Assembly (NCBI GenBank): GCA_017652765.1
Contig: JAGCAJ010000008.1
Location: 73,230-131,891, forward strand
Source: Candidatus Saccharimonadota bacterium
GTDB taxonomy: Bacteria > Patescibacteriota > Saccharimonadia > Saccharimonadales > Saccharimonadaceae
DNA: 58,662 nucleotides
Direction: 5' to 3'
The translations under genes were made by a program, and so were the position numbers. Shown one piece after another: positions 5,199 to 43,399 of this stretch (within the stretch, counting starts at the first letter, position 1; every line of letters begins with the position of its first letter). Under the pieces are notes generated by a model. That model saw nothing but the letters and a program-made list of their open reading frames with translations. It made no database searches and was not told the DNA's origin.

Positions 5199-5275
5199 TG
5201 GTGGCGGGGGTTGGATTTGAACCAACGACCTTTTGGTTATGAGCCAAACGAGCTACCAGGCTGCTCTACCCCGCG
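5199..5275 (-). tRNA. Initiator tRNA-fMet (CAU)
   Basis: Full cloverleaf of 77 bases including an encoded CCA. The sequence closely follows bacterial initiator tRNA: CGCGGGG acceptor strand, AGAGCAGCCTGGTAGCTCGT D-arm region, CTCATAA anticodon loop and the GTTGG/CCAAC T-stem with TTCAAAT. The initiator hallmark, an unpaired first acceptor position, is present as C1/C72. The anticodon stem is TTTGG/CCAAA, so only two of the usual three consecutive G-C pairs next to the loop remain. It is preceded by a near-perfect promoter and an unusual leader hairpin. Confidence 0.95.
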
Positions 5276-5285
5276 ATATTGAAAA

Positions 5286-5366: not shown

Positions 5367-6659
5367 TTAGTCAGAGACCCAACCAGAGTTGGCACATCCT
5401 TGCGCACCGCCACTTTTGTCGGACTTCCAGCAGTTGCGTGTAACATAGAAGTTCTTGTCGGAAGCGTCGTTACCACTTAGATGAAGCGCATATTCTGGAT
5501 ATGGATAGTAGAGATCTACTAGCTCGATGCGGGTTTCTATGCGACGATATAAATCATTAGCACGACCAGTAGAATCAACAGCGGCTTGGACGCCAGTAAG
5601 AGTAGTATAGCTACTGCAAGCGTTATCGTTTACGCTTTTACAAAGCGCAACCGAAATGTCAGTATTAGGGCGTTTGTATGGCAAGTTGACTTTGAGGAAA
5701 GTAGTGGCAGATACGCGTGGAGTGTGCCTATACGTATCTGGCAATTCTATTGTAACCGTACAGGCAAAACCATTAGGGCTACTGGTAGCATTGCACTGAG
5801 TCTGGATCATATCGTTGTTGTATTTATCTGAATGATCATAGACGGAATCTTTTGAGACAAAATTCTTTGCGTTTCCCTTTCTTGGCTCAAAGATAAGCAT
5901 AGCATGGTCGGTGCCTCGGCTATTGTAGTTGTTGACGTTAAGCTCGGCGACATTGAAATCTGGCACGCCACCAGAAGAGTCAGTCTGGAAAATTTCTAGA
6001 GCGATAATTGGTGGAGCGTATTTCTCGCTGTTATCCTTTAGTGTGGTATTACTATCACTACCACCAATCATGTATTTTTCTCCATCGACGCCAGCATTGG
6101 CGGTGGAGTACCAGCTAAACTGGATTGCATTAACCTGAGAAAGGTCGGCGGAGCGGAGCGGGATAATGCGCGTACTATCAGCATTTGTGAGGGTGGTGAG
6201 GTAGTCGTCAGTTTCCTCGGTGATTTTTACGCAGGTATAGGCTTGTTCCATATAGGAAGCGCTACCATTATTATTTTTGGATTGAGTTTCTTGGACGATA
6301 GTCTCGCCACGATCGCCAGTCTCGCGACCAAGAGTGTTAGTTACAACGTCACAAGAACTCTCGGCAATTCCCTTTTGCATTTCGTAAATGATTCTCTGAC
6401 AACTGCCAACACTAGAACCAGCGTTAGGAGCATAGCCTTGAGAGAGGCAGTCGTGATATTTAAGGATTGCGATTTTAGCATCTTCTACGCCAGCCATAGC
6501 GGAGTCATAAGCGGATTTGGACAAATCAGTATTAACCGTGATAATTGATTCGCCGATAATAATGCGTGTAAAGCTGAGCGTAATAATCCCAAAAACCAAC
6601 GTCAGGAATACTACTGCGTAAATTGAGACTGCACCGCGTTTTGTTGTTATTTTAGTCAT
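5367..6659 (-). CDS. PilX-like pilus/secretion-associated protein
   Basis: A 430-aa protein, last gene of the leftward pilin operon. The N-terminus MTKITTKRGAVSIYAVVFLT has a basic patch, a glycine and one long hydrophobic helix with no Glu at position 5, the layout of PilX-type pilus assembly proteins rather than a major pilin. The body is long, Ser/Thr/Asn-rich and extracellular, with several paired cysteines towards the end (VALCKSVNDNAC; NCWKS with GCANSGW). It starts inside the end of the preceding gene (8-base overlap, ATGACTAA) with Shine-Dalgarno GGAG six bases upstream. Role inferred: minor component of a type IV pilus or pseudopilus on the surface. Confidence 0.7.
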   Translation of the reverse strand: MTKITTKRGAVSIYAVVFLTLVFGIITLSFTRIIIGESIITVNTDLSKSAYDSAMAGVEDAKIAILKYHDCLSQGYAPNAGSSVGSCQRIIYEMQKGIAESSCDVVTNTLGRETGDRGETIVQETQSKNNNGSASYMEQAYTCVKITEETDDYLTTLTNADSTRIIPLRSADLSQVNAIQFSWYSTANAGVDGEKYMIGGSDSNTTLKDNSEKYAPPIIALEIFQTDSSGGVPDFNVAELNVNNYNSRGTDHAMLIFEPRKGNAKNFVSKDSVYDHSDKYNNDMIQTQCNATSSPNGFACTVTIELPDTYRHTPRVSATTFLKVNLPYKRPNTDISVALCKSVNDNACSSYTTLTGVQAAVDSTGRANDLYRRIETRIELVDLYYPYPEYALHLSGNDASDKNFYVTRNCWKSDKSGGAQGCANSGWVSD

Positions 6660-7482
6660 CTGTTTCTCCTGTCGCCTGGGAGGCGAAATTATATTTATTT
6701 AATGCACAGTAAGTAAATTCATCGAAGTAAGCTTCTTTTGGCGCTTTACAGTATTCGCCACTGGCTAGGATGTCCACGTCTCCGTCTAGGGTTGCAAGGA
6801 TGAAGGTGCCAGCGTAGAAGGCTTGACCAGAATAGGCGTGTCGGCCTGGTGGGAAAATGCGCATATCATAAAGGGCGAGGTCGGATTCGGATGGATCAAT
6901 TAGCTCGGCCATATCGGTTGTGCTGACGGTATAGGATGGAGCTTCGTTGCCGTCATAGGCATATGTGCCGGTGTTGACATTATTCATACAGAGCTGGCCA
7001 CCAGAATCGAAGACACGAATTAACCTAAAGTCGTCTCGGCCATTAACCTTGGCCCTAACATTATTATTGCTATTTAAAGCATAGCCAGTATTCCAGATAA
7101 AGGTATATAGGCCCGAACAGAATATTCCGTTAGTAGGAAGGGTTCTATTTTTCATGCTCCCAGGAGCGTCGGCACCAAAGGAGTGAGTACGCTGACGGAA
7201 AATGAAACGAAAAGCGTTATCATTTCTACATGCGTTTCTGGCACCCTCTGCGACAAGGGAACATTTTGCATCCGTACTGACGAGTGTAGAGGCCTTGATA
7301 TGGCGAGTCATATCATCTATGATTTCTTGGGAGGTCTGGTTAACAGCTTTAATCATGAGAGTTTTTTGGTAAATGGCAAGCATTTGGATAATTAGAAACG
7401 CGGTCATTAAAAGCAATACCGAAATAAATGCCATGGAGAGAGTGGTTTCGATAATTGTAAAACCGGATTTATTGCGACGCAT
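6652..7482 (-). CDS. PilW-like prepilin (N-methylation motif)
   Basis: A 276-aa protein beginning MRRNKSGFTIIETTLSMAF: a short basic leader, a G/F prepilin peptidase site after residue 7 and Glu at position 5 of the mature protein, followed by a hydrophobic helix to about residue 35. This is the class III signal of type IV pilins and type II secretion pseudopilins. The rest is a soluble, cysteine-containing globular region (CSLVAEGARNAC; GEYCKAPKEAYFDEFTYC). It shares a TAATG stop/start with the gene before it. A minor pilin role is inferred from size, position and order. Confidence 0.8.
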   Translation of the reverse strand: MRRNKSGFTIIETTLSMAFISVLLLMTAFLIIQMLAIYQKTLMIKAVNQTSQEIIDDMTRHIKASTLVSTDAKCSLVAEGARNACRNDNAFRFIFRQRTHSFGADAPGSMKNRTLPTNGIFCSGLYTFIWNTGYALNSNNNVRAKVNGRDDFRLIRVFDSGGQLCMNNVNTGTYAYDGNEAPSYTVSTTDMAELIDPSESDLALYDMRIFPPGRHAYSGQAFYAGTFILATLDGDVDILASGEYCKAPKEAYFDEFTYCALNKYNFASQATGETDD

Positions 7483-8267
7483 TAGATATCCTCCACGATT
7501 TCTGGGTTATATAGACGGATAATGGTACCGATAGTAGTAGGATTGTCTCTGTCTGGGCTATACCAACAAGCGCGAATATGGAAGTCGAAGAACTCTGGGA
7601 TAGTATTTGCGACTTTAGCATTGTTGGAACGGTCACGGATGGCAATGATATAAATACCTTCGGCGGCGGCAACATAGCGATAATCGCCCTGCTCATAAAT
7701 TTGCTCTTCGGAATTATTAGTACCGGAAGCACTACCGCTAGCAGTCGTATATAATACGCGCGGATAAGTTTTAGTGGCGGTGAATTTATTTTGATTGCCA
7801 TTCCTAGTAGAGATAACAATTCTTTCTTTATTCAATTTGTTCGCGCCACTTTGATCGATATTTCTAGTATCCATAATAAATGCAGTAAGTCCGCTCTTAA
7901 AAATGCTTTTATTTCCGCCATCATAGACTTCGTCACAGGTATTGACGCTAAGCTCGGGGAGTTTGTCCGGCTCGTTAGCCATGCCATTATTAGCTGACGA
8001 GGTGCTGTCAGTTAGGTATTTCCAAAGTGTCCGATATTGTTGCTTTTCTATTACTAATTCCCTCTCTAGGGTAAAGGCGTTATGGATAAAGCGCAACGAC
8101 TCGGCCTGAGCGTCGATTTCGCTTCTAGATTGAGCAACTTCCATGGCGCCTTCGGTAGTCTTAAGGCCAGCACTCATAACATTAAGCGCAAGGACAGAGA
8201 CTAGCGAGAAAACTGCAATCGCAAAGAGGACTTCTACTAGGGTGTCGCCGAGTTTAACTTTTAGCAT
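7482..8267 (-). CDS. PilV-like prepilin
   Basis: A 261-aa protein starting MLKVKLGDTLVEVLFAIAVFS. It has a prepilin site with Gly at residue 7, Asp as the first mature residue instead of the usual Phe/Met, and Glu at mature position 5, then the hydrophobic pilin helix. An extracytoplasmic domain with a few cysteines follows. Its ATG lies within the last codons of the upstream gene (7-base overlap), with a GGAGGTAA Shine-Dalgarno. With its neighbours it makes a K-V-W-X style minor pilin set. Confidence 0.78.
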   Translation of the reverse strand: MLKVKLGDTLVEVLFAIAVFSLVSVLALNVMSAGLKTTEGAMEVAQSRSEIDAQAESLRFIHNAFTLERELVIEKQQYRTLWKYLTDSTSSANNGMANEPDKLPELSVNTCDEVYDGGNKSIFKSGLTAFIMDTRNIDQSGANKLNKERIVISTRNGNQNKFTATKTYPRVLYTTASGSASGTNNSEEQIYEQGDYRYVAAAEGIYIIAIRDRSNNAKVANTIPEFFDFHIRACWYSPDRDNPTTIGTIIRLYNPEIVEDI

Positions 8268-9208
8268 CGGTTACCTCCTTCTCCTTGTGGTTTGTCAGTT
8301 TCGATGATTTCTACGGCTGTAGAATCATGGGCATATTCCTTAATACGGACATTGTTGCGATAAGAAACATGAGAAAACACGTCTGGGGAGTTAATACAGA
8401 AGTCTATCTCGTGAGGGGTGAAGGCATCGCTATTGCCAGAGTTAAGATAGCTAGAGAGGATGTCGCCCCGGCTGGCGGCGGCGTTATAAACCTGGCCAAC
8501 GTAGGCCGGATTGAGCGAGCCTTGGCTATTTTTGTAGTCGCTAATAATTTGCTGATAATCAATTTTACGGCTAGAAAAATAAGTATTAACTGCGCCGGTA
8601 GTAGGAGAGCGGACGATGAGAATCTCGCCTTCAAATTTGGACTTGTCTGGGTTTTCTGGCCAGGCATCCCACGTAGGTTTATAAGCATAATAATTTCCTG
8701 CTGGACCTAGAGTATATGTGCCGTTATCGTTTGCTTTCAAAGCTAGGACGTCGGCATAGATATGTTTGAGATTGTCTAGGACATCACCACCTAAGTTACT
8801 CCGGAAATCAACAGCCTTGCCAATGACATCATAAACATAGAATGAGCCATTGGAGCCGGTCTCGCCAAACGAAATCAACTTGCCATAAACCGCACAACCA
8901 GAACGGCCGGCATAGCTTTGATTGTCGTTAGGGTTAGGCTGGAGATTAGGGTCCTGAGTATAGGCATACTGGCCGGTAAGGGTGCAGAATTGATTCTGCG
9001 CGGAAATGATGCCTCTACGATCGTTTTGAACATTCTCTACTTCGGAGTAAATCGTACGGAGGAAGTCTGCAAAGTTCCTGGTCGCATCGGTATAGCGCTC
9101 CTTGCCGATACGATAGGAAATCGTGCTAATGAAAGCAATTAGCATTAGGGTTGCGACCGCTAGCGCGAGGATGATTTCTACTAGTGTAAAGCCTCTTTTT
9201 TGCTTCAT
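8261..9208 (-). CDS. Type IV pilin/pseudopilin-like protein
   Basis: A 315-aa protein starting MKQKRGFTLVEIILALAVAT, a textbook prepilin peptidase site (RGFTLVE) with one N-terminal transmembrane helix. The C-terminal part is soluble and contains scattered cysteines. Its ATG follows directly on the stop TAG of the giant exported-protein gene (TAGATG), so expression is coupled. Family membership is clear from the signal; whether it is a major or minor subunit cannot be told from sequence alone. Confidence 0.82.
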   Translation of the reverse strand: MKQKRGFTLVEIILALAVATLMLIAFISTISYRIGKERYTDATRNFADFLRTIYSEVENVQNDRRGIISAQNQFCTLTGQYAYTQDPNLQPNPNDNQSYAGRSGCAVYGKLISFGETGSNGSFYVYDVIGKAVDFRSNLGGDVLDNLKHIYADVLALKANDNGTYTLGPAGNYYAYKPTWDAWPENPDKSKFEGEILIVRSPTTGAVNTYFSSRKIDYQQIISDYKNSQGSLNPAYVGQVYNAAASRGDILSSYLNSGNSDAFTPHEIDFCINSPDVFSHVSYRNNVRIKEYAHDSTAVEIIETDKPQGEGGNRC

Positions 9209-12200
9209 CTAGTACCTCGGTGCGAGCTCACGCGTATAGGTTACGTTTGCTTGAGAGAAGCGTTGTGCTTGTGAGTAGGCCCAATATAGCGCGTCTGGAC
9301 GGAGGTTAAAGATTTCGGCAGGCTGGATAGAGCCATCGTCGGAGAGATTCTTTTGGATAGGATTGGCGCGATTAGCGCTTGGGGAATTACCCTGGCCTGG
9401 GTCGGCGCCGGCAGTACGGCTAAGCTGAACGTTTTTAGCGTAAACTGGGCCGTTGAAGATGAGTTGCCTATCACAAGTCTGGGAATCAATGTTTGGAATG
9501 AGCTTGCCATCACAAGTATTGATTGTGCCACTAGTGATAATCCAGGCATCAATCTGGGTGACGGCGGAGCTAATCGTAATGTTGCCGTCAACGACGATGA
9601 GAATTTGTGGGATACTGTAGATATTGTTAAACGTAACGTTGTTTCTATTTAGTAATACTAGGGCGTTATCCATATTCTTACATGAGCCGTCACCTGTACA
9701 GATATTGCGGTCGATGTAAAAGTCTTTGTCAACATGGATGACGAGGACGTTGCTGGCGTAGTTTCTAGTGGTCTGGGTGCTTTCGGTCTGGTTGCCTTTC
9801 ATCTGGCGAATCTCACCACTAGTAATCCTAGTGTTTGGAGTGCTAGTACCATTGGTGTAGCTAAGGTTGGCTAGCTGGCTGGCAGCGATATTATTGGCTG
9901 AATGGACGTAGACTGCGCCGTTATCTAGGGTCTGGATACCGTTACTGACGGTGCCTAGATAGCGTGAGCGAATACGTTCCTTGGTGACGGCGACAGGGTC
10001 ATCGATCTTGGAATTGCCAGACACACCATCTTTACAACTATATTTCTCATTACTAATAGTAACGTCTTCGTTTGCGATAGTCATTGGAACTAGGTCACAG
10101 TAGTCTACGTTGCCATCTATACCACCAGAAGAGCCAAATGGCTTGTGCCCGCCCATGAGACCTAAGGACATAGAGTTATTAGTGTTAGAGCTATAGCCGT
10201 AGTAGCCAAGAGTGGCGCCGGAAGCGAAGCCGATTGTTGTGCCATAGGAGTTCAATAAGTACTCTTCCCAAGAGCCGAACATGCCGTTTGGTTCGTATGG
10301 GACGCCTAGATGAGCATCAACACGCTTGTTGGTAATACTGGTTCGCATACTGCCGTGATTGTACATGTTGCCATTCCAAACCTGGAAGTTAGGTTTCTTG
10401 GCAATAGTACGACAAGAAGCAGGAGAGACACGCCAGCCGGAGCGGTGGTCCATGCCGGATGCCTGAGAGCTGTCAGGAATGCCGTGAGAGTCGGAAGAGG
10501 AGATACCTACCGCTACGCAATATTTAGAGCCGACAGGATAGATGTCCGGAACAGCGCGAGTAGCAGTGCCGGAATAAGTTCTACCGCGATATCTACCTTC
10601 TGGGTTAAGCCCACCAGATTCGCCCCAGAGGCCACTTTGGCAATCATACATTTGGCTACCATATTGGTTGCGATAGAAGGTGCATGGGTCCTGGCCGCTG
10701 CCAACACCGTCGGAGCTAGTCATGCTGGAACCCTGGATACCGGCTTGGCTAGCATCCGGGGAGATGACAAATTCTACGGCGCGAATCTCGGCGTCGACTA
10801 GGGTAGCGTATTCTTCGGAACCTCTAACCTCTTCTACGGCGCGTGGAAGAATGGAGGCGGTAAAGAAGGAGCTGACACTCTCGCCTAGATAGACAACATC
10901 GCCTTCTTGAATCTCGGCGGAGACTTCGGTGCGGTAGCTATATGGAATGTTGACGGTAGCAGTCTGACTTCTTTCGCCGTACTCAGCTTGGGCGGTAGGA
11001 TAGTTCTTGCCTGGGAAGTGATACTTTGTGCCCGGATGGCTTGTGCAACTACCATTGCACGGGGTGCTGTTGTCTGGGTATGAGGAGCCCGGGACGCATC
11101 CGCTATCAACCTTAGGACAATCATACCACTCTATCGTCCACTGCGTACAGACGCCATCATTGTTAGCGACTAGACATGGGGCAACATTTCGCCAACAGCA
11201 TAGGATGCAGTTATATGAGTGATTCCATGCATCGCAGGCACATTTAGAACTGTCGCAGTCTTTTTCGTGAGTATCAGTATCGCGACTATGTTTCGAGATT
11301 AGACCCCATTTGCCATCAGTAGAAAGAGCAGACTCCATAGACTGGAACGGATCCTCAATAGTATTTTGGTTGTTTTCCGTTAAAGTATTATAGGCCTCGT
11401 GGAGCTCTGGGTAGTCTACGCTGACTGGGTCATGGTAGCTTTCTTCTGGAGGGAGGGCGGTACAGTTATCAATGCAATCACCAGTTTCTTCGTGCTTGTA
11501 TAACTGCCAAGCTTTGCCTAGGTTATATCTAATAGTTTGGGAAACTGACTGACCAACAACGGACATAGTAGTCTTCTCGGCAGCGGCACAAGTACCCGTA
11601 GCGATACCAGGAGCCTGGTAACCACCCTGGACAAAGAATGGTGGGAAGTCAAAAATCTGACAGTTGTAGCTAGTAGCGTCAATGCTACGATAGGTCGGAG
11701 AATAAAGAGCAAATTGGTAATTTTGATTATATGAAGTATGATTATCTAGGTTACTAAAACCGGTAGCTGCGCCAATAGTACTACTGCGAGGAGAAATAAG
11801 CTGGTATTTTCTGCTGCCAAAGGCCTGTTCGTCGTCGCCAAAGAGAAAGTCGTCGCCATGAGAACTCTCAATCTGGAAATGCAATTCCCTAATAGGTTTG
11901 TTGCCTACCGCGTATTTGTCATACCAAGCTAGTTCTGGAGTCATGACTGCACCGCCCGTAGAAAGATCGCTGCCAGTACCTAATGCATACGGGCTAGATG
12001 CGCTACTCATAGAGCCACCCACCCTACCAACGCTCCAACAATAAGTGATCTCAAATCTAATAGAGTCGCCCGGGCGAGCCCAAACAGTGTTTCCCTTTGC
12101 GGCAAATGTGGTATTCTCATTCTTAGTCAGGTTAGACACCGAGGCAGTACCAGCCGTATCGCCAGCATGGGAACCACCATTAGTACAGGCGAACTTTGGA

Positions 12201-12904
12201 CGCGTTACAGTAGGCGGATCGCCGTCGCACCTAAGACCCGGGAAGAGGAGAGCGAGAACTTCACATGGCGGAGGAGTCTCGCCGTCTTCTAGGCCACCAA
12301 AGCCACTTCTAGAAAGTAAGGCGGACAAATCTTCAAGCAAACCTGCGTCAACCATTTGCTTGTAGATGGCCAAAACTTCGGCTTGTGGAATGTCGCCATA
12401 CCAGCCCTTAGAGTTGAGGTAACTAAAGGCGCCATTGTAGCCACCGTGACCATCAGGAAGACCGGCGACTGGGATGATTGTTAGTAGCTGACCTTTCCGG
12501 ACGTAGGTCCTAACGCCGTCGATGTTAACATAGCCGTCCTTATTAGCGTAGAGGGCGTAGGAATAGAATTTAGCGCCCACCCTAGTATTACCAGTAGTAA
12601 AGTCCGCTTTATTAGGGTGATAATGAGTATGGCCATAGTCAATGCTGTGGACGCCCTGAAGCTGCATGTTTGGGCTAGTAACCGTCTGGACGTTCCAACC
12701 GGTAGCGCCACTATAAACAACACTGTTACAGTTACCGCCAGCACAGCTACCGTGACCACCGGACGAACCGCCACCACCACAAGTTTGGTCGGCACCACTA
12801 GCATTTCTACCACAGTTAGCATAGGCAGAATTACTCCAAAAATTTATTGCGACAAAGGCCAAGACAATCGCTAGGCCGGTTGCGAGAAATTTATTCATCC
12901 GCAT
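9209..12904 (-). CDS. Giant exported cysteine-rich protein (1231 aa) of the pilin operon
   Basis: Function unknown; candidate adhesin or pilus-associated surface protein. A signal peptide ends near residue 29 (SAYA-NCGRN). About 34 cysteines are present, 12 of them within residues 545-622, including CDSSKCACD and ILCCW, which implies many disulfides. Long Ser/Gly/Asn/Tyr-rich stretches follow. The last ~200 residues alternate short hydrophobic strands (VLVIHVDKDFYI, ILIVVDGNITI, DAWIITSGTI) like a right-handed beta-helix or polymer-forming domain, closing with AEIFNLRPDALYWAYSQAQ. No C-terminal anchor or LPxTG is seen. The gene overlaps its upstream neighbour by 14 bases and touches the next pilin gene. 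A PilY1-like tip role is suggested by context only; no PilY1 propeller was recognised. Confidence 0.75.
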   Translation of the reverse strand: MRMNKFLATGLAIVLAFVAINFWSNSAYANCGRNASGADQTCGGGGSSGGHGSCAGGNCNSVVYSGATGWNVQTVTSPNMQLQGVHSIDYGHTHYHPNKADFTTGNTRVGAKFYSYALYANKDGYVNIDGVRTYVRKGQLLTIIPVAGLPDGHGGYNGAFSYLNSKGWYGDIPQAEVLAIYKQMVDAGLLEDLSALLSRSGFGGLEDGETPPPCEVLALLFPGLRCDGDPPTVTRPKFACTNGGSHAGDTAGTASVSNLTKNENTTFAAKGNTVWARPGDSIRFEITYCWSVGRVGGSMSSASSPYALGTGSDLSTGGAVMTPELAWYDKYAVGNKPIRELHFQIESSHGDDFLFGDDEQAFGSRKYQLISPRSSTIGAATGFSNLDNHTSYNQNYQFALYSPTYRSIDATSYNCQIFDFPPFFVQGGYQAPGIATGTCAAAEKTTMSVVGQSVSQTIRYNLGKAWQLYKHEETGDCIDNCTALPPEESYHDPVSVDYPELHEAYNTLTENNQNTIEDPFQSMESALSTDGKWGLISKHSRDTDTHEKDCDSSKCACDAWNHSYNCILCCWRNVAPCLVANNDGVCTQWTIEWYDCPKVDSGCVPGSSYPDNSTPCNGSCTSHPGTKYHFPGKNYPTAQAEYGERSQTATVNIPYSYRTEVSAEIQEGDVVYLGESVSSFFTASILPRAVEEVRGSEEYATLVDAEIRAVEFVISPDASQAGIQGSSMTSSDGVGSGQDPCTFYRNQYGSQMYDCQSGLWGESGGLNPEGRYRGRTYSGTATRAVPDIYPVGSKYCVAVGISSSDSHGIPDSSQASGMDHRSGWRVSPASCRTIAKKPNFQVWNGNMYNHGSMRTSITNKRVDAHLGVPYEPNGMFGSWEEYLLNSYGTTIGFASGATLGYYGYSSNTNNSMSLGLMGGHKPFGSSGGIDGNVDYCDLVPMTIANEDVTISNEKYSCKDGVSGNSKIDDPVAVTKERIRSRYLGTVSNGIQTLDNGAVYVHSANNIAASQLANLSYTNGTSTPNTRITSGEIRQMKGNQTESTQTTRNYASNVLVIHVDKDFYIDRNICTGDGSCKNMDNALVLLNRNNVTFNNIYSIPQILIVVDGNITISSAVTQIDAWIITSGTINTCDGKLIPNIDSQTCDRQLIFNGPVYAKNVQLSRTAGADPGQGNSPSANRANPIQKNLSDDGSIQPAEIFNLRPDALYWAYSQAQRFSQANVTYTRELAPRY

Positions 12905-13559
12905 GTGTGCCCTCCTCTGGGTCGCCTAACCCTTCTGCGCTGTTGTCGTCTACGTTGACTGATTCGGCTAATTCTCTATAATAATTTGCCATGTCGTTGT
13001 CGCCATCCCAGCTATACATCTTTGCTAGTAGGGCAAAGACGGTATAACGTTGGCGTTCGTTAATTGCGTCTTCTTTTAGACTTTCTGCTTCTGAGAATGC
13101 ATATGCTGGCCAGCCAGAACTATAGAGCATCTGAATCCGGAGAGCTTTGACACCGAAGATCAGATTAATATCTCTAGAAGCATCTTCCAGGTCGGCCATA
13201 AGGTCGGTCAGATAAACTAAGGCATCACTGTAGCCCTTGCCAACGGCGACTTCGTAAGCTTTGGTTTCTATTGTGGAAAGCTCAGTAGGGATTGGTTCGT
13301 GCGTACGTTTGCCAAGATTGTTGCTCGCGACAAGGTTAATAATAAGGGTGATTAGCAAAATAACGGCGAGAAGACTAGCCGTAACTATTGCGATAATTCT
13401 AAGGGTTCTGTGCGAAATATTAAAACGCTTTCGCTCTACTTTTTCTTTATCTTTACGCCCGCCTTTGACGTTGGAAAAATATTCTGGCGTAGAGACATAG
13501 CCAATATTTTTCGATTCAAAAGAATTGTCCGGGACTTTGTCTTGACCTTCTTTGTCCAT
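12891..13559 (-). CDS. Single-pass membrane protein with helical-repeat (TPR-like) domain, first gene of the pilin operon
   Basis: A 222-aa protein. Residues 1-50 are cytoplasmic and charged, one transmembrane helix lies at about 52-75, and an outside domain of antiparallel helices (about 90-205) has TPR-like spacing (KAYEVAVGKGYSDALVYL; QRYTVFALLAKMYSWDGDNDMANYYRELAE). The tail is acidic. Such domains usually hold partner proteins; leading the pilin operon, it may scaffold assembly or export of the giant protein. It begins six bases after a TAATAT box (leaderless) and overlaps the next gene by 14 bases. Confidence 0.7.
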   Translation of the reverse strand: MDKEGQDKVPDNSFESKNIGYVSTPEYFSNVKGGRKDKEKVERKRFNISHRTLRIIAIVTASLLAVILLITLIINLVASNNLGKRTHEPIPTELSTIETKAYEVAVGKGYSDALVYLTDLMADLEDASRDINLIFGVKALRIQMLYSSGWPAYAFSEAESLKEDAINERQRYTVFALLAKMYSWDGDNDMANYYRELAESVNVDDNSAEGLGDPEEGTHADE

Positions 13560-14331: not shown

Positions 14332-14754
14332 CTATGCGCCGAATAGGAAGGTAAACCATTGCTCGAAGTTGCTTGGTTCTTCGACGACTTCTTCGACTTT
14401 AATCTCTTCGTGTTTGTGCTTGGCGTAGTCGGAATTGTCTGGCAAGTATACTAGGAACTCACCCTCTAGCTTTTTGTTCTGTTTGGCGCGGGCAGAGAGC
14501 TCCTGGTATTCTTCGGACGCGAGATACTTATTTTCTAACTCTATAGAGTCAATTTCTAGCTGTTCTAGCGTCAATTCATAGCGACGGGCGACCAGGCGTT
14601 GTTCTAGCTCCCAGTTACGGCTCATGGCAGAAATAGCGCTCCAGGTCCAAACAAGACAAACGGAAACGGCGACAATAAAAATAACATGTTCGCTAGAGAA
14701 CCAATGTTTAATCCGGTAATTTAACCTCCGGAAAGATGTTTTTATCCGTTCCAT
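14332..14754 (-). CDS. FtsB/DivIC-like septum protein (TM plus coiled coil)
   Basis: A 140-aa protein with a short basic cytoplasmic tail, one membrane helix (about residues 24-44), a Leu/Glu-rich coiled coil (about 45-95) and a short acidic outside tail ending NFEQWFTFLFGA. This is the layout of septum-formation initiators FtsB/FtsL/DivIC, which link FtsQ and the late divisome. Sequence in this family is poorly conserved, so the call rests on architecture and size. A TATAAT box lies 12 bases upstream of the ATG, giving at most a very short leader. Confidence 0.6.
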   Translation of the reverse strand: MERIKTSFRRLNYRIKHWFSSEHVIFIVAVSVCLVWTWSAISAMSRNWELEQRLVARRYELTLEQLEIDSIELENKYLASEEYQELSARAKQNKKLEGEFLVYLPDNSDYAKHKHEEIKVEEVVEEPSNFEQWFTFLFGA

Positions 14755-39392: not shown

Positions 39393-39401
39393 ATTATATC
39401 A
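39393..39401 (-). promoter_or_regulatory. Extended -10 fused with the stop codon of the upstream gene
   Basis: Reading leftward TGA-TATAAT, then six bases (ATAAGC), then the ATG at 39386. The TGA is also the stop codon of the two-domain GT gene, so gene end and promoter share bases. Confidence 0.7.
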
Positions 39402-41240
39402 CGCCTGTGGATCTTTAGCTTTGTCTAGGAGATAGCCGGCTGTCGTCTTTTTGGTGAGATTAGGATTATAAAAAATGTCATTCTCGATACGTTTTTTCCA
39501 TTTTTTGTACATAAATTCCTGCTCAGAATCAAAGCGAATCTTCTTCTCTCCGGAGGTATCAGAACCCCGCGACCTAGATTCGTGGTGGTAGAGCTCAATA
39601 TTGGCCAGACAAACATTATAATAACCTTTTTCTAGCAACTTAAGATTAAAATCAACGTCGTTATACGCCACTTTCAGTTTCTCTTCTAGACCGCTGACTT
39701 CGCTCCATTTTTCTCTGCTCACCACTAGACAGGCACCAGTCACCGCGCTAAAATCATGCGGGACAGCTAGTTGGCCAGCCCAGGCTACGACTTCGCGCTT
39801 TTTTTCTAGATGCACATGCGAAGCTACGCCAATACCTAGAACAATACCGGCATGTTGCACGGTGTCATTTGGATAGAGTAATTTTGCACCTACTGCACCA
39901 ATATGTTTTTGAGAGGCGTAGCCAATCATCCAGGTAAGCCAGTCTGGACTAATAACTTCTATATCATTATTCATTAGTACAATGTAATCGGATTCTGTTT
40001 CCCTGGCTGCAAGATTGTTAATTTTAGAATAATTGAACTCGAAGTTAGCGTCAATAACACGGAAATTTTTATATTTTTTCTTATATTTGTCAAAGAGCGT
40101 AAAAGTTTCTGGCTTTTCACTATTGTTATTTACGACTACGACCTCATAATTTTTGTATGTGGTCTTCTCATAGATTGACTTTAGACAAACTTCAGTGACA
40201 TCGGCTAGGTCTTTTGTTGGAATAATAATGGTCGCCTTGGGATTACCCACCGGCTCATATTCTACGCAATAGTATGGGCAGTTTTTAGCGATGTGGACTT
40301 TACCCTTAATCTTTCTCCGCCCGAGTGCGTCCTCTAGAGCTTTTTTACCGCGCTCTAGGGCATAATCTTTTTTGTCGATACTGCTCGCAGTAGACCCTTC
40401 GGCCATACGCCAATGATATAGGATCTTTGGAATGTGATAAATGTTGTCGGTTTTCTCAAAGAAACGAAGATACAAGTCGTAGTCCTGGGCGCCTTCAAAG
40501 CCAGCCCTAAAACCACCGATTTTATTAATAATCGAACGCCTCAAAACCCCAAGATGTGAAATATAATTGACACTCATAAAAGTATCTGGAGAATAATCAG
40601 GCTTAAAATTTGGATAGCAATATCTACCATCCTCATCTAGCTTGTCTTCATCGGTATAAATCATATCGATTTTTTTGTCTTTATTTAGAACTTTGACTAC
40701 TTCATAGAGCGCATTTTCTGGAATAGTGTCGTCATTATCCATGAGCGCTACAAATTCGCCTTTGGCTAGTTTCAGTGCGCTATTAGTAGCCTTAGAAATG
40801 TGCCCGTTCTTTCTGCGATAAGTGATTTTAATTTTTTTGTTCTTTTCGTATTCTTTTAGCGTGGCTTTAGTATCTTTATCAGTGGAGGCATCATCGGCGA
40901 GGCAGATTTCGAAGTTTTTGTAGGTCTGTGCAAGAATGGAGTCAATACACTCCTTGAGATATTTTGGCTCGGCATTGTAGACTGGAATTACTACGGAGAT
41001 GAGCGGTTTGTACTTGAAACTGTTGGCGGTTTTTGGGTATCGACTAGGATTTTCTTCTAGCCATTTATTGTAGTCTTTTTTGTCTAGCGGATTATAGAAA
41101 AGGTTTATTGGTCTCATCCCGAGCAACAGCTTAATGTATTTTTTCCAGAGTCTTGGTGGAATCAAAAAGTGATATTTTTTCCACGAAGATTTAGACCCGC
41201 GATATAATGTCACAAAAAAATTTTCTAGCCGATTCTTCAT
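39399..41240 (-). CDS. Two-domain GT2 glycosyltransferase
   Basis: A 613-aa protein with two GT-A domains in tandem. Domain 1 (about 60-290) has SVVIPVYNAEPKYL, DDASTDKDT and MDNDD. Domain 2 (about 315-560) has TIIIPTKDLADVTE, VVNNNSEKPET, MNNDIEV and the ED-like acceptor region YNDVDFNLKLLEKGY. This layout is typical of rhamnan, O-antigen and glycan-chain synthases that add two different linkages. It starts leaderless and ends in TGA, one of two clear TGA stops in the window, which argues that TGA is a normal stop here. Confidence 0.9.
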   Translation of the reverse strand: MKNRLENFFVTLYRGSKSSWKKYHFLIPPRLWKKYIKLLLGMRPINLFYNPLDKKDYNKWLEENPSRYPKTANSFKYKPLISVVIPVYNAEPKYLKECIDSILAQTYKNFEICLADDASTDKDTKATLKEYEKNKKIKITYRRKNGHISKATNSALKLAKGEFVALMDNDDTIPENALYEVVKVLNKDKKIDMIYTDEDKLDEDGRYCYPNFKPDYSPDTFMSVNYISHLGVLRRSIINKIGGFRAGFEGAQDYDLYLRFFEKTDNIYHIPKILYHWRMAEGSTASSIDKKDYALERGKKALEDALGRRKIKGKVHIAKNCPYYCVEYEPVGNPKATIIIPTKDLADVTEVCLKSIYEKTTYKNYEVVVVNNNSEKPETFTLFDKYKKKYKNFRVIDANFEFNYSKINNLAARETESDYIVLMNNDIEVISPDWLTWMIGYASQKHIGAVGAKLLYPNDTVQHAGIVLGIGVASHVHLEKKREVVAWAGQLAVPHDFSAVTGACLVVSREKWSEVSGLEEKLKVAYNDVDFNLKLLEKGYYNVCLANIELYHHESRSRGSDTSGEKKIRFDSEQEFMYKKWKKRIENDIFYNPNLTKKTTAGYLLDKAKDPQA

Positions 41241-41281: not shown

Positions 41282-43399
41282 CTACTGAGTTTTGGTTAGT
41301 ATCCACCCCTGCGCTTTAGTGTCATTGCTAGACCAGATTTGGACGTTGCCACCATTTTTTGCGACGCCACCGGCAAGGTCTAGAACAATATTTGATGAGC
41401 ATGCAGAAGTAATACGATAGGTTCCGTCAGTATTTTTCTTAATTTGCCATTGTTGAGCACACGTAGAATTACTCGTGAATAACTGGACGTTAGTGCCAGG
41501 AGTCTTAGACCCACCCGCAACGTCTAGCGCGCGATTGGTCTTGGTATTTTTTATGGTATACGTGCCGTTGTTATTTTTTATGATTTTCCAATCTTGAGCG
41601 GGGGTGCCATTCTTCTCCCAAACCTGAATATTAGTACCATCCTTTGCGGTGTTTATCCCATTAGTAATATCAATCGCAAGTCTCTCATTAACCGCGGAAG
41701 TAATTACGTAATTACCATCTATGGCCTCGTCGGTATATGAGGATAATGTCCAGACTTGAGCGTTGGAGTCGTTGGCGGTGTAGATCTGTAGCTTTTGCCA
41801 TGAGGTACTGACGTAGCCGCCTTGGACGTCAATAGCCTTTTTAGTACAGGCAGAGAGGAATCTGTAGCCAACGCCACTTTTTTCAACAATCCATTTCTGG
41901 GCGCAAGTACCATTATAGTCGTAAAGTTGGAGCGGGGTACCATCTGCTTTTTCGCCCGCTTTTACGTCGACGACTCTTCCGGAAGTAGTATTTTTGATAG
42001 AATATAGCCCATCGCTCGATCTGCTAACTCTGTAAAGCTGCCCTCTATCGTAATTGACGTCATAGATCTGCATCTTCGTTCCGTTGTCAACCGCACCACC
42101 ATAAGAATCCATAGCCTTCCCACCGGTAGTCTTTAATACATATGAGCCGTCTTCAATTATTGCGGTAGAATTATCTTGCGCGGTAAATTTTTGGGCTGAG
42201 GAATTATTACTGTCGTAAATCTGAATTTTTAGCCCTGCAGTGCCACTATTCCCTGCGGGTATATCAATCGACTTATTTGAGCACATTGATTTAATTGTAT
42301 ATTTATCGTGATCAACCGAAAAATACCATTTCTGCGCGCATGTATCGTTAGATTCGTAGAGCTGAATATTGGTGCCATTTCTTACCTCGCCACCGACTAC
42401 ATCCAAAACAAGATTGGATGCTATGTGGCGAATGGTATAGTAATCACCCTTTCTTTCGAATTTATACTCGGCTGGGGTACTAGATAAGGCAATCTTGGCG
42501 CCAGAAGCATTTGATTCTGGAGTGAGGTAGAGTCCAGCCTGCGTCTTAATGGCAATCTTGTCGCCATCTGGCAAATAGGCACTAGAGACGGTAGTATGTG
42601 TATCACCAAACCATCTAGTGTAATAGAAATAGAAATTACTGTTGCCGTAAGCGCCACAGTGGACGACCGTGCCAGGGTTAGAATCCAAGACAGAGGCATT
42701 TGGCTGATATGGAGTGTATTGATATAGTGCGGAGGTGGCGCGGTTTTCAATATTAACTGTGAAGCCGCCACAGTTGCCATCTGGATTATACTTGACGAAG
42801 TTGCTTCCTACTGGGTAGTACCTAGAGCCGTTGTCTAGGATATAACGGAAAAGCTCGGCAGAGTTTCTAACCTGATTTTTAAACCCATAGTACTGCGAGT
42901 CACAAGCGGCGGTATCAGGGCAGCCATAGCCGGTGGCGGAGCGATATTGCAAATTGGAGTTTGGCCAAGTGTCGGTGACTAGACCCTGTTCTTTTTCTAG
43001 CAAAACAATAATGACTTTTGGATTAATGCGAAAATCCTGGGCTGCCTGCCAGATAATATGCGCAGCGGTTTCACCATTAAAATTCTCGTCGGCCATACAA
43101 ACAAAGTGGCCGTTTTCTATGTGATAAGAAAGATTTGGGTAAGCGGAAGCCTTGGCGATATTAGTATCGTTGCATGGGTTTTTAGACTTTAGAAACGCCT
43201 GAATCTCCGCCTCGGACATAGAGGCATAGTCGGACATGACATAGTCGGAAATAATATTACCAGCGCTAAACCCGTTATAGGCGGAGTTTATGGCAGAGGA
43301 AGAATTCATATTCTTAAAAGCCAAAAAGCCAATGGTGGCCATAAGTCCAAAAATTAGTCCTAGGCGAAGTTTTTCTGGAAAAGCAAATCTACGGCGCAT
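41282..43399 (-). CDS. Exported ricin-type lectin repeat protein with actinobacterial-style N-terminal domain
   Basis: A 705-aa protein with a signal-anchor helix (about residues 11-30). Residues ~45-255 form a domain with SMSEAEIQAFLKSK, INPKVIIVLLEKEQGLVT, GYGCPDTAACDSQYYGF, ALYQYTPYQPNASV and FYFYYTRWFG. From memory this pattern is common in secreted actinobacterial proteins and may have a lysozyme-like fold (Glu in LEKEQG). Residues ~265-705 are beta-trefoil lectin repeats: eight Q-x-W-type units (CAQKWYF, SAQKFTA, RGQLYRV, CAQKWIV, NAQVWTL, PAQDWKI, CAQQWQI, KAQGWIL), enough for about three trefoils. Such repeats bind carbohydrates. It shares TAATG with the upstream gene. Possible role: binding or cutting the wall of a host bacterium. 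Confidence 0.8.
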   Translation of the reverse strand: MRRRFAFPEKLRLGLIFGLMATIGFLAFKNMNSSSAINSAYNGFSAGNIISDYVMSDYASMSEAEIQAFLKSKNPCNDTNIAKASAYPNLSYHIENGHFVCMADENFNGETAAHIIWQAAQDFRINPKVIIVLLEKEQGLVTDTWPNSNLQYRSATGYGCPDTAACDSQYYGFKNQVRNSAELFRYILDNGSRYYPVGSNFVKYNPDGNCGGFTVNIENRATSALYQYTPYQPNASVLDSNPGTVVHCGAYGNSNFYFYYTRWFGDTHTTVSSAYLPDGDKIAIKTQAGLYLTPESNASGAKIALSSTPAEYKFERKGDYYTIRHIASNLVLDVVGGEVRNGTNIQLYESNDTCAQKWYFSVDHDKYTIKSMCSNKSIDIPAGNSGTAGLKIQIYDSNNSSAQKFTAQDNSTAIIEDGSYVLKTTGGKAMDSYGGAVDNGTKMQIYDVNYDRGQLYRVSRSSDGLYSIKNTTSGRVVDVKAGEKADGTPLQLYDYNGTCAQKWIVEKSGVGYRFLSACTKKAIDVQGGYVSTSWQKLQIYTANDSNAQVWTLSSYTDEAIDGNYVITSAVNERLAIDITNGINTAKDGTNIQVWEKNGTPAQDWKIIKNNNGTYTIKNTKTNRALDVAGGSKTPGTNVQLFTSNSTCAQQWQIKKNTDGTYRITSACSSNIVLDLAGGVAKNGGNVQIWSSNDTKAQGWILTKTQ

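Follow-up and report, generated by a model that had tools for sequence, protein, structure and literature searches.

The analysed window, a 58,662-nucleotide (nt) stretch of Candidatus Saccharimonadota bacterium (assembly GCA_017652765.1, contig JAGCAJ010000008.1, designated here as C4, positions 73230-131891; genome of 748 kb, 95% complete), contains a gene cluster encoding four pilin-like proteins, a very large exported protein (referred to here as the giant) and a small membrane protein. The cluster consists of six open reading frames (ORFs), all on the minus strand and spanning positions 5367-13559 of the window, which in 5' to 3' gene order are joined by a 14-nt overlap, a touching junction (0 nt) and overlaps of 7, 1 and 8 nt. 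These ORFs reproduce, at the same positions, the six-gene operon with overlapping or touching ends proposed in an initial annotation of the sequence, and the same gene set recurs in the same order in many relatives of the window genome, so that a chance arrangement can be dismissed. The six genes, with the basis of each assignment and lengths in amino acids (aa), are as follows:

12891..13559, minus strand: single-pass membrane protein, 222 aa, partner gene of the giant (ORF; neighbour survey)
9209..12904, minus strand: giant exported protein, 1231 aa, 34 Cys, proposed PilY1-like pilus-tip primer/adhesin (ORF, model, homologues)
8261..9208, minus strand: P4 minor pilin, FimU/GspH-like (GFTLVE), 315 aa (N_methyl; orthologue gspH match)
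7482..8267, minus strand: P3 minor pilin, PilV/GspI-like (G/DTLVE), 261 aa (gspI matches)
6652..7482, minus strand: P2 minor pilin, PilW/GspJ-like (GFTIIE), 276 aa (weak prepilin and ComGF matches; mainly gene order)
5367..6659, minus strand: P1 minor pilin, PilX/GspK-like, without Glu5, 430 aa (PilX_N in orthologues; alignment)

The giant carries an N-terminal signal peptide, MRMNKFLATGLAIVLAFVAINFWSNSAYA, followed by NC, which was read by eye from the translation as type-I-like; no prepilin motif or pilin N-terminus and no transmembrane (TM) segment beyond the signal peptide were found in the protein. Its length and its 34 cysteines agree with the earlier description (1231 residues, about 34 cysteines), while the cysteine cluster, previously given as 12 in about 80 residues, proved to be slightly denser. 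The following parts were distinguished:

12818..12904, minus strand: type-I-like signal peptide, aa 1-29, ending NSAYA/NC (translation read by eye)
11435..12817, minus strand: variable N-terminal region, aa 30-250, and less variable module, aa 251-490 (per-region identity, alignment)
11045..11257, minus strand: cysteine cluster, aa 550-620, 12 Cys in 71 residues (Cys count)
10397..10933, minus strand: predicted Ig/CARDB-like β-sandwich, aa 658-836 (AlphaFold2 model residues 22-200)
9296..10393, minus strand: predicted β-solenoid, aa 838-1203 (AlphaFold2 model; VIA-align)
9212..9295, minus strand: short helix followed by a conserved tail, predicted to be unstructured, at the C-terminus, aa 1204-1231, last residues YTRELAPRY (homologue tails; model confidence)

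Comparison with eight relatives revealed identities of 19-41% for aa 30-250, 22-44% for aa 251-490, 13-33% for aa 491-636, 33-55% for aa 637-836, 25-44% for aa 837-1060 and 45-54% for aa 1061-1231; the region around the cysteine cluster (aa 491-636) is thus the least conserved part of the protein. The four pilins display 30-57% identity to the same relatives. The clustered cysteines occupy positions 550, 555, 557, 566, 569, 570, 577, 586, 596, 603, 616 and 620, and a 52-row alignment of the core shows no variation at Cys 796, 1131 and 1144 and almost none at Cys 831. The genome encodes two Thioredoxin_4 (DsbA-like) proteins, which could serve disulfide formation, and no match to VKOR was obtained in it. 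The C-terminal tail, represented by the pattern ELxPR[YF], is conserved although predicted to be unstructured (predicted local distance difference test score, pLDDT, below 50 for the last 15 residues): among 133 giant homologues, E[LIVM][APS]P[RK][YF] is terminal in 86, Arg is the penultimate residue in 121 and Glu stands sixth from the end in 109.

Structure prediction of the core (aa 637-1231) with AlphaFold2 returned a model with a pLDDT of 78.5 and a predicted template modelling score of 0.78, in which a β-sandwich is followed by a β-solenoid, consistent with the β-helix-like C-terminus that had been predicted from the sequence. A Foldseek search with this model retrieved nothing at E ≤ 0.001, and the solenoid matches reported here stem from VIA re-alignment and not from Foldseek alone. 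By VIA-align, the solenoid matched first the ice-binding protein FfIBP (4nu2; Z 12.8, 171 aligned residues, 2.9 Å) and next Thermus thermophilus ComZ (6qvi; Z 10.2, 197 aligned residues, 4.0 Å), and the β-sandwich matched generic β-sandwiches with Z of about 7-8. Pfam and NCBIfam yielded nothing convincing for the giant, its orthologues of 568-1188 aa or its paralogues of up to 2354 aa; no housekeeping family, a match to which would have contradicted the initial interpretation, and no RCC1 or propeller domain emerged from these scans. The Pfam ice-binding model (DUF3494) matched none of 52 family members at E up to 1, and the giant has no sequence match in the PDB.

The minor-pilin set P4-P3-P2-P1 lies directly downstream of the giant gene in the window. 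Gly(-1) and Glu5, expected of prepilins with the exception of PilX and GspK, are present in P4 (GFTLVE), P3 (GDTLVE) and P2 (GFTIIE); P1 possesses neither a prepilin motif nor Glu5, the latter residue being absent also from PilX and GspK (PMC7541494). The prepilin motifs noted in the initial annotation are therefore canonical in P4 and P2, altered in P3, where an Asp that is conserved among P3 orthologues replaces Phe at +1, and absent from P1. All profile matches were short and N-terminal, as is usual for pilins: P4 exceeded the Pfam N_methyl cut-off (23.6 bits) and its orthologue matched gspH best (3.8e-5); P3 gave gspI as its best NCBIfam match below the cut-off (E 0.0012; orthologue, 0.0055); P2 matched general prepilin and ComGF models weakly; and PilX_N (PF14341) was detected in four of ten P1 orthologues (best E 0.0028), not including P1 of the window. 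Taken by motif, profile and order, the four genes are shown to represent minor pilins in the canonical order FimU/GspH, PilV/GspI, PilW/GspJ and PilX/GspK, where the assignment of P2 to PilW/GspJ rests mainly on gene order.

The product of the first gene of the operon consists of a cytoplasmic part of ~55 aa at its N-terminus, one TM helix and a TPR-like helical outer part, and had no convincing Pfam or NCBIfam match. A protein of 70-400 aa with at least one TM segment near its N-terminus is encoded 5' of the giant in 89 of the 133 non-redundant loci; 16 of the remaining loci have no upstream sequence.

The machinery of a type IV pilus (T4P) is encoded elsewhere in the genome, in answer to the earlier proviso that a genome devoid of any pilus motor would contradict a pilus function. 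Contig C18 carries pilM-N-O, a gene for a small 'X' protein, pilB, a pilT-like gene and pilC, the only PilC gene of the genome, in one run; contig C7 carries a PilD-like peptidase gene (E 8.8e-4, below the Pfam cut-off) beside a major-pilin-like pilA. In the cultured strain TM7i (CP075337), these parts form a single locus: small TM protein-giant (1142 aa)-pilM-pilN-pilO-X-pilB-pilT-pilC-pilA-pilD-P4-P3-P2-P1. In five further genomes, overlapping stretches cover giant-pilM...pilC on the one hand and pilC-pilA-[gap]-P4-P3-P2-P1 on the other; the gap has the size of PilD, pilD having been read directly in TM7i only. Since the giant and P4-P1 lie at opposite ends of the TM7i-type locus, the window operon is, judged by gene order, the first and last parts of a T4P locus joined together, the middle having moved elsewhere. 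Unlike the TM7i-type locus, that of the window organism is therefore split in three (C18, C7 and C4).

A second PilB-like ATPase (542 aa, 2.2e-91) is encoded at C4:60741-61919 (L035, about 7502-9130), adjoined by a small tsaE-like ATPase gene; as no second PilC accompanies it, it represents an orphan motor. One PilC each was found in the tested members of the window's genus, against two in many of the remaining genomes of its family and order; a second T4P machine seems to have been lost or never gained in this genus. An origin of the operon in the second pilus (T4P-2) known from Nanosynbacter lyticus TM7x was ruled out by the single PilC of the genome.

Giant homologues were gathered from genomes and contigs, after which gene maps were made. 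The core family, defined by alignment to aa 637-1231, was detected in 354 of the 392 Saccharimonadia genomes sampled and in 136 of 152 genera, and the window genome holds a single copy. The loci closest in giant sequence belong to Saccharibacteria metagenome-assembled genomes (MAGs), several of them recovered from the duodenum or ileum of goats or the rumen of roe deer. In most families beyond the window's clade, pilM-N-O-X-B-T-C directly follows the giant, which there measures about 350-1140 aa (median 653). By position, the 133 non-redundant giants comprise 51 upstream of pilM/N, 25 upstream of P4/P3, 4 that neighbour pilins in a different orientation, 7 at the end of a contig and 46 elsewhere. 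A quick tree built from 117 cores places every pilM-linked copy on the same side of one branch (Shimodaira-Hasegawa-like approximate likelihood ratio test, 94), with the pilin-linked and most of the dispersed copies on the other; the window's giant groups with the pilin-linked relatives. With Saccharimonadia excluded, weak matches to the solenoid part alone were obtained, and in six of the mappable loci of other Patescibacteria (L199-L202, L204 and L205) the match is encoded immediately upstream, or nearly so, of genes of the pilM/O-B-T-C type. The suggestion that the giant is specific to its lineage thus holds for the N-terminal half only and not for the core.

Giant paralogues of 1832-2354 aa occur in the window's genus (L074, L075, L090, L081 and L076), several per genome and away from T4P genes; no Pfam domain was detected at E ≤ 0.01 among those scanned. 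A number of MAGs labelled Nomurabacteria or Chloroflexi (L112, L114, L125, L129, L135, L136 and L168 [JAISJL, JAISOF]; L159 [SEAL01]) encode giants that cluster in the tree with those of Saccharibacteria, and are probably mislabelled or mixed bins; JAISOF contains at least five giant copies.

These gene maps and translations identify the giant as a predicted secreted non-pilin protein with a class-wide core, the gene for which lies physically within the T4P locus in relatives, and its membership of the T4P system is, on this genomic basis, strongly supported. We consider it probable that the six genes specify the priming complex at the tip of the organism's T4P, with the giant in the role of PilY1 but with a different fold. 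The solenoid of the giant resembles that of ComZ, for which a place at the pilus tip has been argued from its structure (PMC6561018); the tip location of the giant is inferred, and a part in host recognition is plausible. The pilus-tip adhesin suggested in the initial annotation fits the FimU-, PilV-, PilW- and PilX-like genes of the operon, the type-I-like signal peptide, the variable N-terminal and conserved C-terminal regions and the T4P-motor neighbours in relatives. Its other suggestion, a secreted polymer, was rejected, as no repeats or polymerization features were found. A more far-reaching proposition, namely that a β-solenoid protein took over the PilY1 role at the tip throughout the class and that the fast-changing N-terminal half decides the host of the epibiont, is put forward tentatively, the odds being somewhat against it.

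Following the PilY1 model for docking, priming, tip location, surface or host contact and retraction alike, the giant would be exported by Sec and would then dock on P1, the PilX-like pilin that terminates the stack of minor pilins. Docking would probably involve the conserved solenoid and the ELxPR[YF] tail, a candidate complementing strand, by strand complementation as modelled for PilX-PilY1, and the single-pass partner may retain the giant at the membrane or serve there as its chaperone. The resulting complex of giant and minor pilins would prime pilus extension and ride at the tip, with the variable, cysteine-rich N-terminal half directed outward to contact surfaces or host cells, after which PilT-driven retraction would pull the epibiont in.

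Several observations weigh against a PilY1-like tip protein. Neither Pfam nor NCBIfam gave a PilY1-type match for the giant at E up to 1, nor did any of 52 homologues produce one in Pfam, and a β-propeller is absent from the core (aa 637-1231) predicted by AlphaFold2. The N-terminal half, which would make contact, yielded no usable model (pLDDT 34 for aa 30-640) and contains no adhesion domain in Pfam. Furthermore, 46 of the 133 giants, mostly paralogues in the window's genus, are located away from recognized T4P genes, so that some family members may perform other surface jobs. Finally, pilC was present in all 30 genomes tested for co-occurrence, including 20 without a detected giant; T4P may work without the giant, or the copy may be too diverged for detection.

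The dispersed copies would also suit a giant that is an adhesin or envelope protein of the cell surface rather than of the tip, merely co-transcribed with T4P genes and anchored by its single-pass partner. The absence of a pilin helix from the giant, and the single-TM gene that precedes it in 89 of 133 loci whether or not T4P genes are near, agree with such a role. This explanation is nevertheless judged unlikely, given that linkage of the gene to pilM is seen repeatedly across many of the class's families, that weak relatives in other Patescibacteria are placed likewise, and that the minor-pilin set travels with the giant in the window's clade.

Were the giant indeed borne at the tip, it might serve as a DNA receptor for natural competence, as has been proposed for Thermus ComZ, and not as a host adhesin. 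Saccharibacteria are naturally competent (PMC10633639), and ComZ, a pilus-associated match to the solenoid (Z 10.2), binds DNA (PMC6561018); however, a fold match to ComZ alone carries no functional information, and the strong N-terminal variability and repeated paralogue expansion suit ligand diversity better, which renders a DNA receptor quite improbable. It is very improbable that the minor pilins constitute a type II secretion pseudopilus with the giant as its secreted substrate: although P3 and P4 score weakly with GspI and GspH models and P1 is GspK-like, the same locus in relatives holds PilT-like retraction ATPases and pilM-N-O, and Saccharibacteria twitch and bear T4P as seen by cryo-electron tomography (PMC12206443).

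T4P are implicated in the recognition and seizure of hosts by ultrasmall epibionts. One conserved gene beside pilM (or the minor pilins), encoding a constant core and a variable outer half, represents a candidate for the molecule that makes the contact in the first T4P of Saccharibacteria (T4P-1). If the proposed tip role is true, the job of PilY1 can be done by an unrelated fold.

Other features of the window were recorded alongside the operon. A 140-aa single-TM protein of unassigned family is encoded at 14332-14754 (minus strand); its gene is close to the giant operon in relatives L037, L103 and L105 as well, and genes of similar size occur in L040, L042 and L117. A tRNA-like stretch with an apparent CAT anticodon, read by eye, is located directly downstream of the operon (about 5199-5276, minus strand). 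A 705-aa protein encoded at 41282-43399 (minus strand), with an adjoining glycosyltransferase gene at 39399-41240, contains repeated ricin-type β-trefoil lectin domains (RicinB_lectin_2, 4.5e-85, six stretches) and is, from its domain content, another candidate surface adhesin or glycan-binding protein.

Among known systems, PilY1/PilC, the tip adhesin of the T4aP of Pseudomonas, Myxococcus and Neisseria, is one of the closest counterparts. PilY1 is a soluble protein with a type I signal peptide, a variable N-terminal and a conserved C-terminal region, and the complex into which it enters with FimU, PilV, PilW and PilX both primes the pilus and caps it (PMC7541494); PilY1 has a high cysteine count, and strand complementation is predicted between PilX and PilY1 (PMC13190605). 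The giant is alike in its type-I-like signal peptide, its operon with four minor pilins including a PilX-like P1 without Glu5, its high cysteine count and its expansion into paralogues with differing N-termini, and also in combining a poorly conserved N-terminal region (13-44% identity to the eight relatives over aa 30-636) with a well conserved C-terminal one (45-54% over aa 1061-1231). It differs in the absence of a PilY1 family match, in a C-terminal half predicted as β-sandwich and β-solenoid instead of a modified β-propeller, and in the position of its gene upstream of the minor pilins (or of pilM). The giant is thus a class-wide T4P component, PilY1-like in its proposed working but outside the PilY1 family by sequence and predicted fold; no description of it was found in a literature search combining Saccharibacteria with PilY1, minor pilins and pilM, the coverage of which excluded most subscription journals and preprints.

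ComZ of T. thermophilus (6qvi), a competence pilin assigned to the pilus tip, shares with the giant a β-solenoid of the ice-binding-protein type and an association with T4P minor pilins. In ComZ, however, the solenoid is inserted in its own GspK-like pilin domain, whereas the giant carries a signal peptide and lacks a pilin domain, the latter being supplied by the separate gene P1. PilX2, of the T4P-2 pilus of TM7x, has been proposed by the authors of that study as a PilY1-like adhesin and is, like the giant, a proposed adhesin of a Saccharibacteria T4P; it is a pilin with an RCC1 β-propeller and belongs to a second, non-essential pilus, whereas the window genome has one PilC and no RCC1 match.

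The T4P-1 locus has been delimited as TM7x_00415-00475, with five pilins, in the T4P study of TM7x, and as SEML1_0104-0116 in the transposon sequencing study of Southlakia epibionticum. The five pilins of TM7x match pilA and P4-P1, and each range comprises 13 genes, as does the pilM-to-P1 segment of TM7i. Both published ranges therefore seem to start at pilM, and the giant would sit one gene outside each of them.

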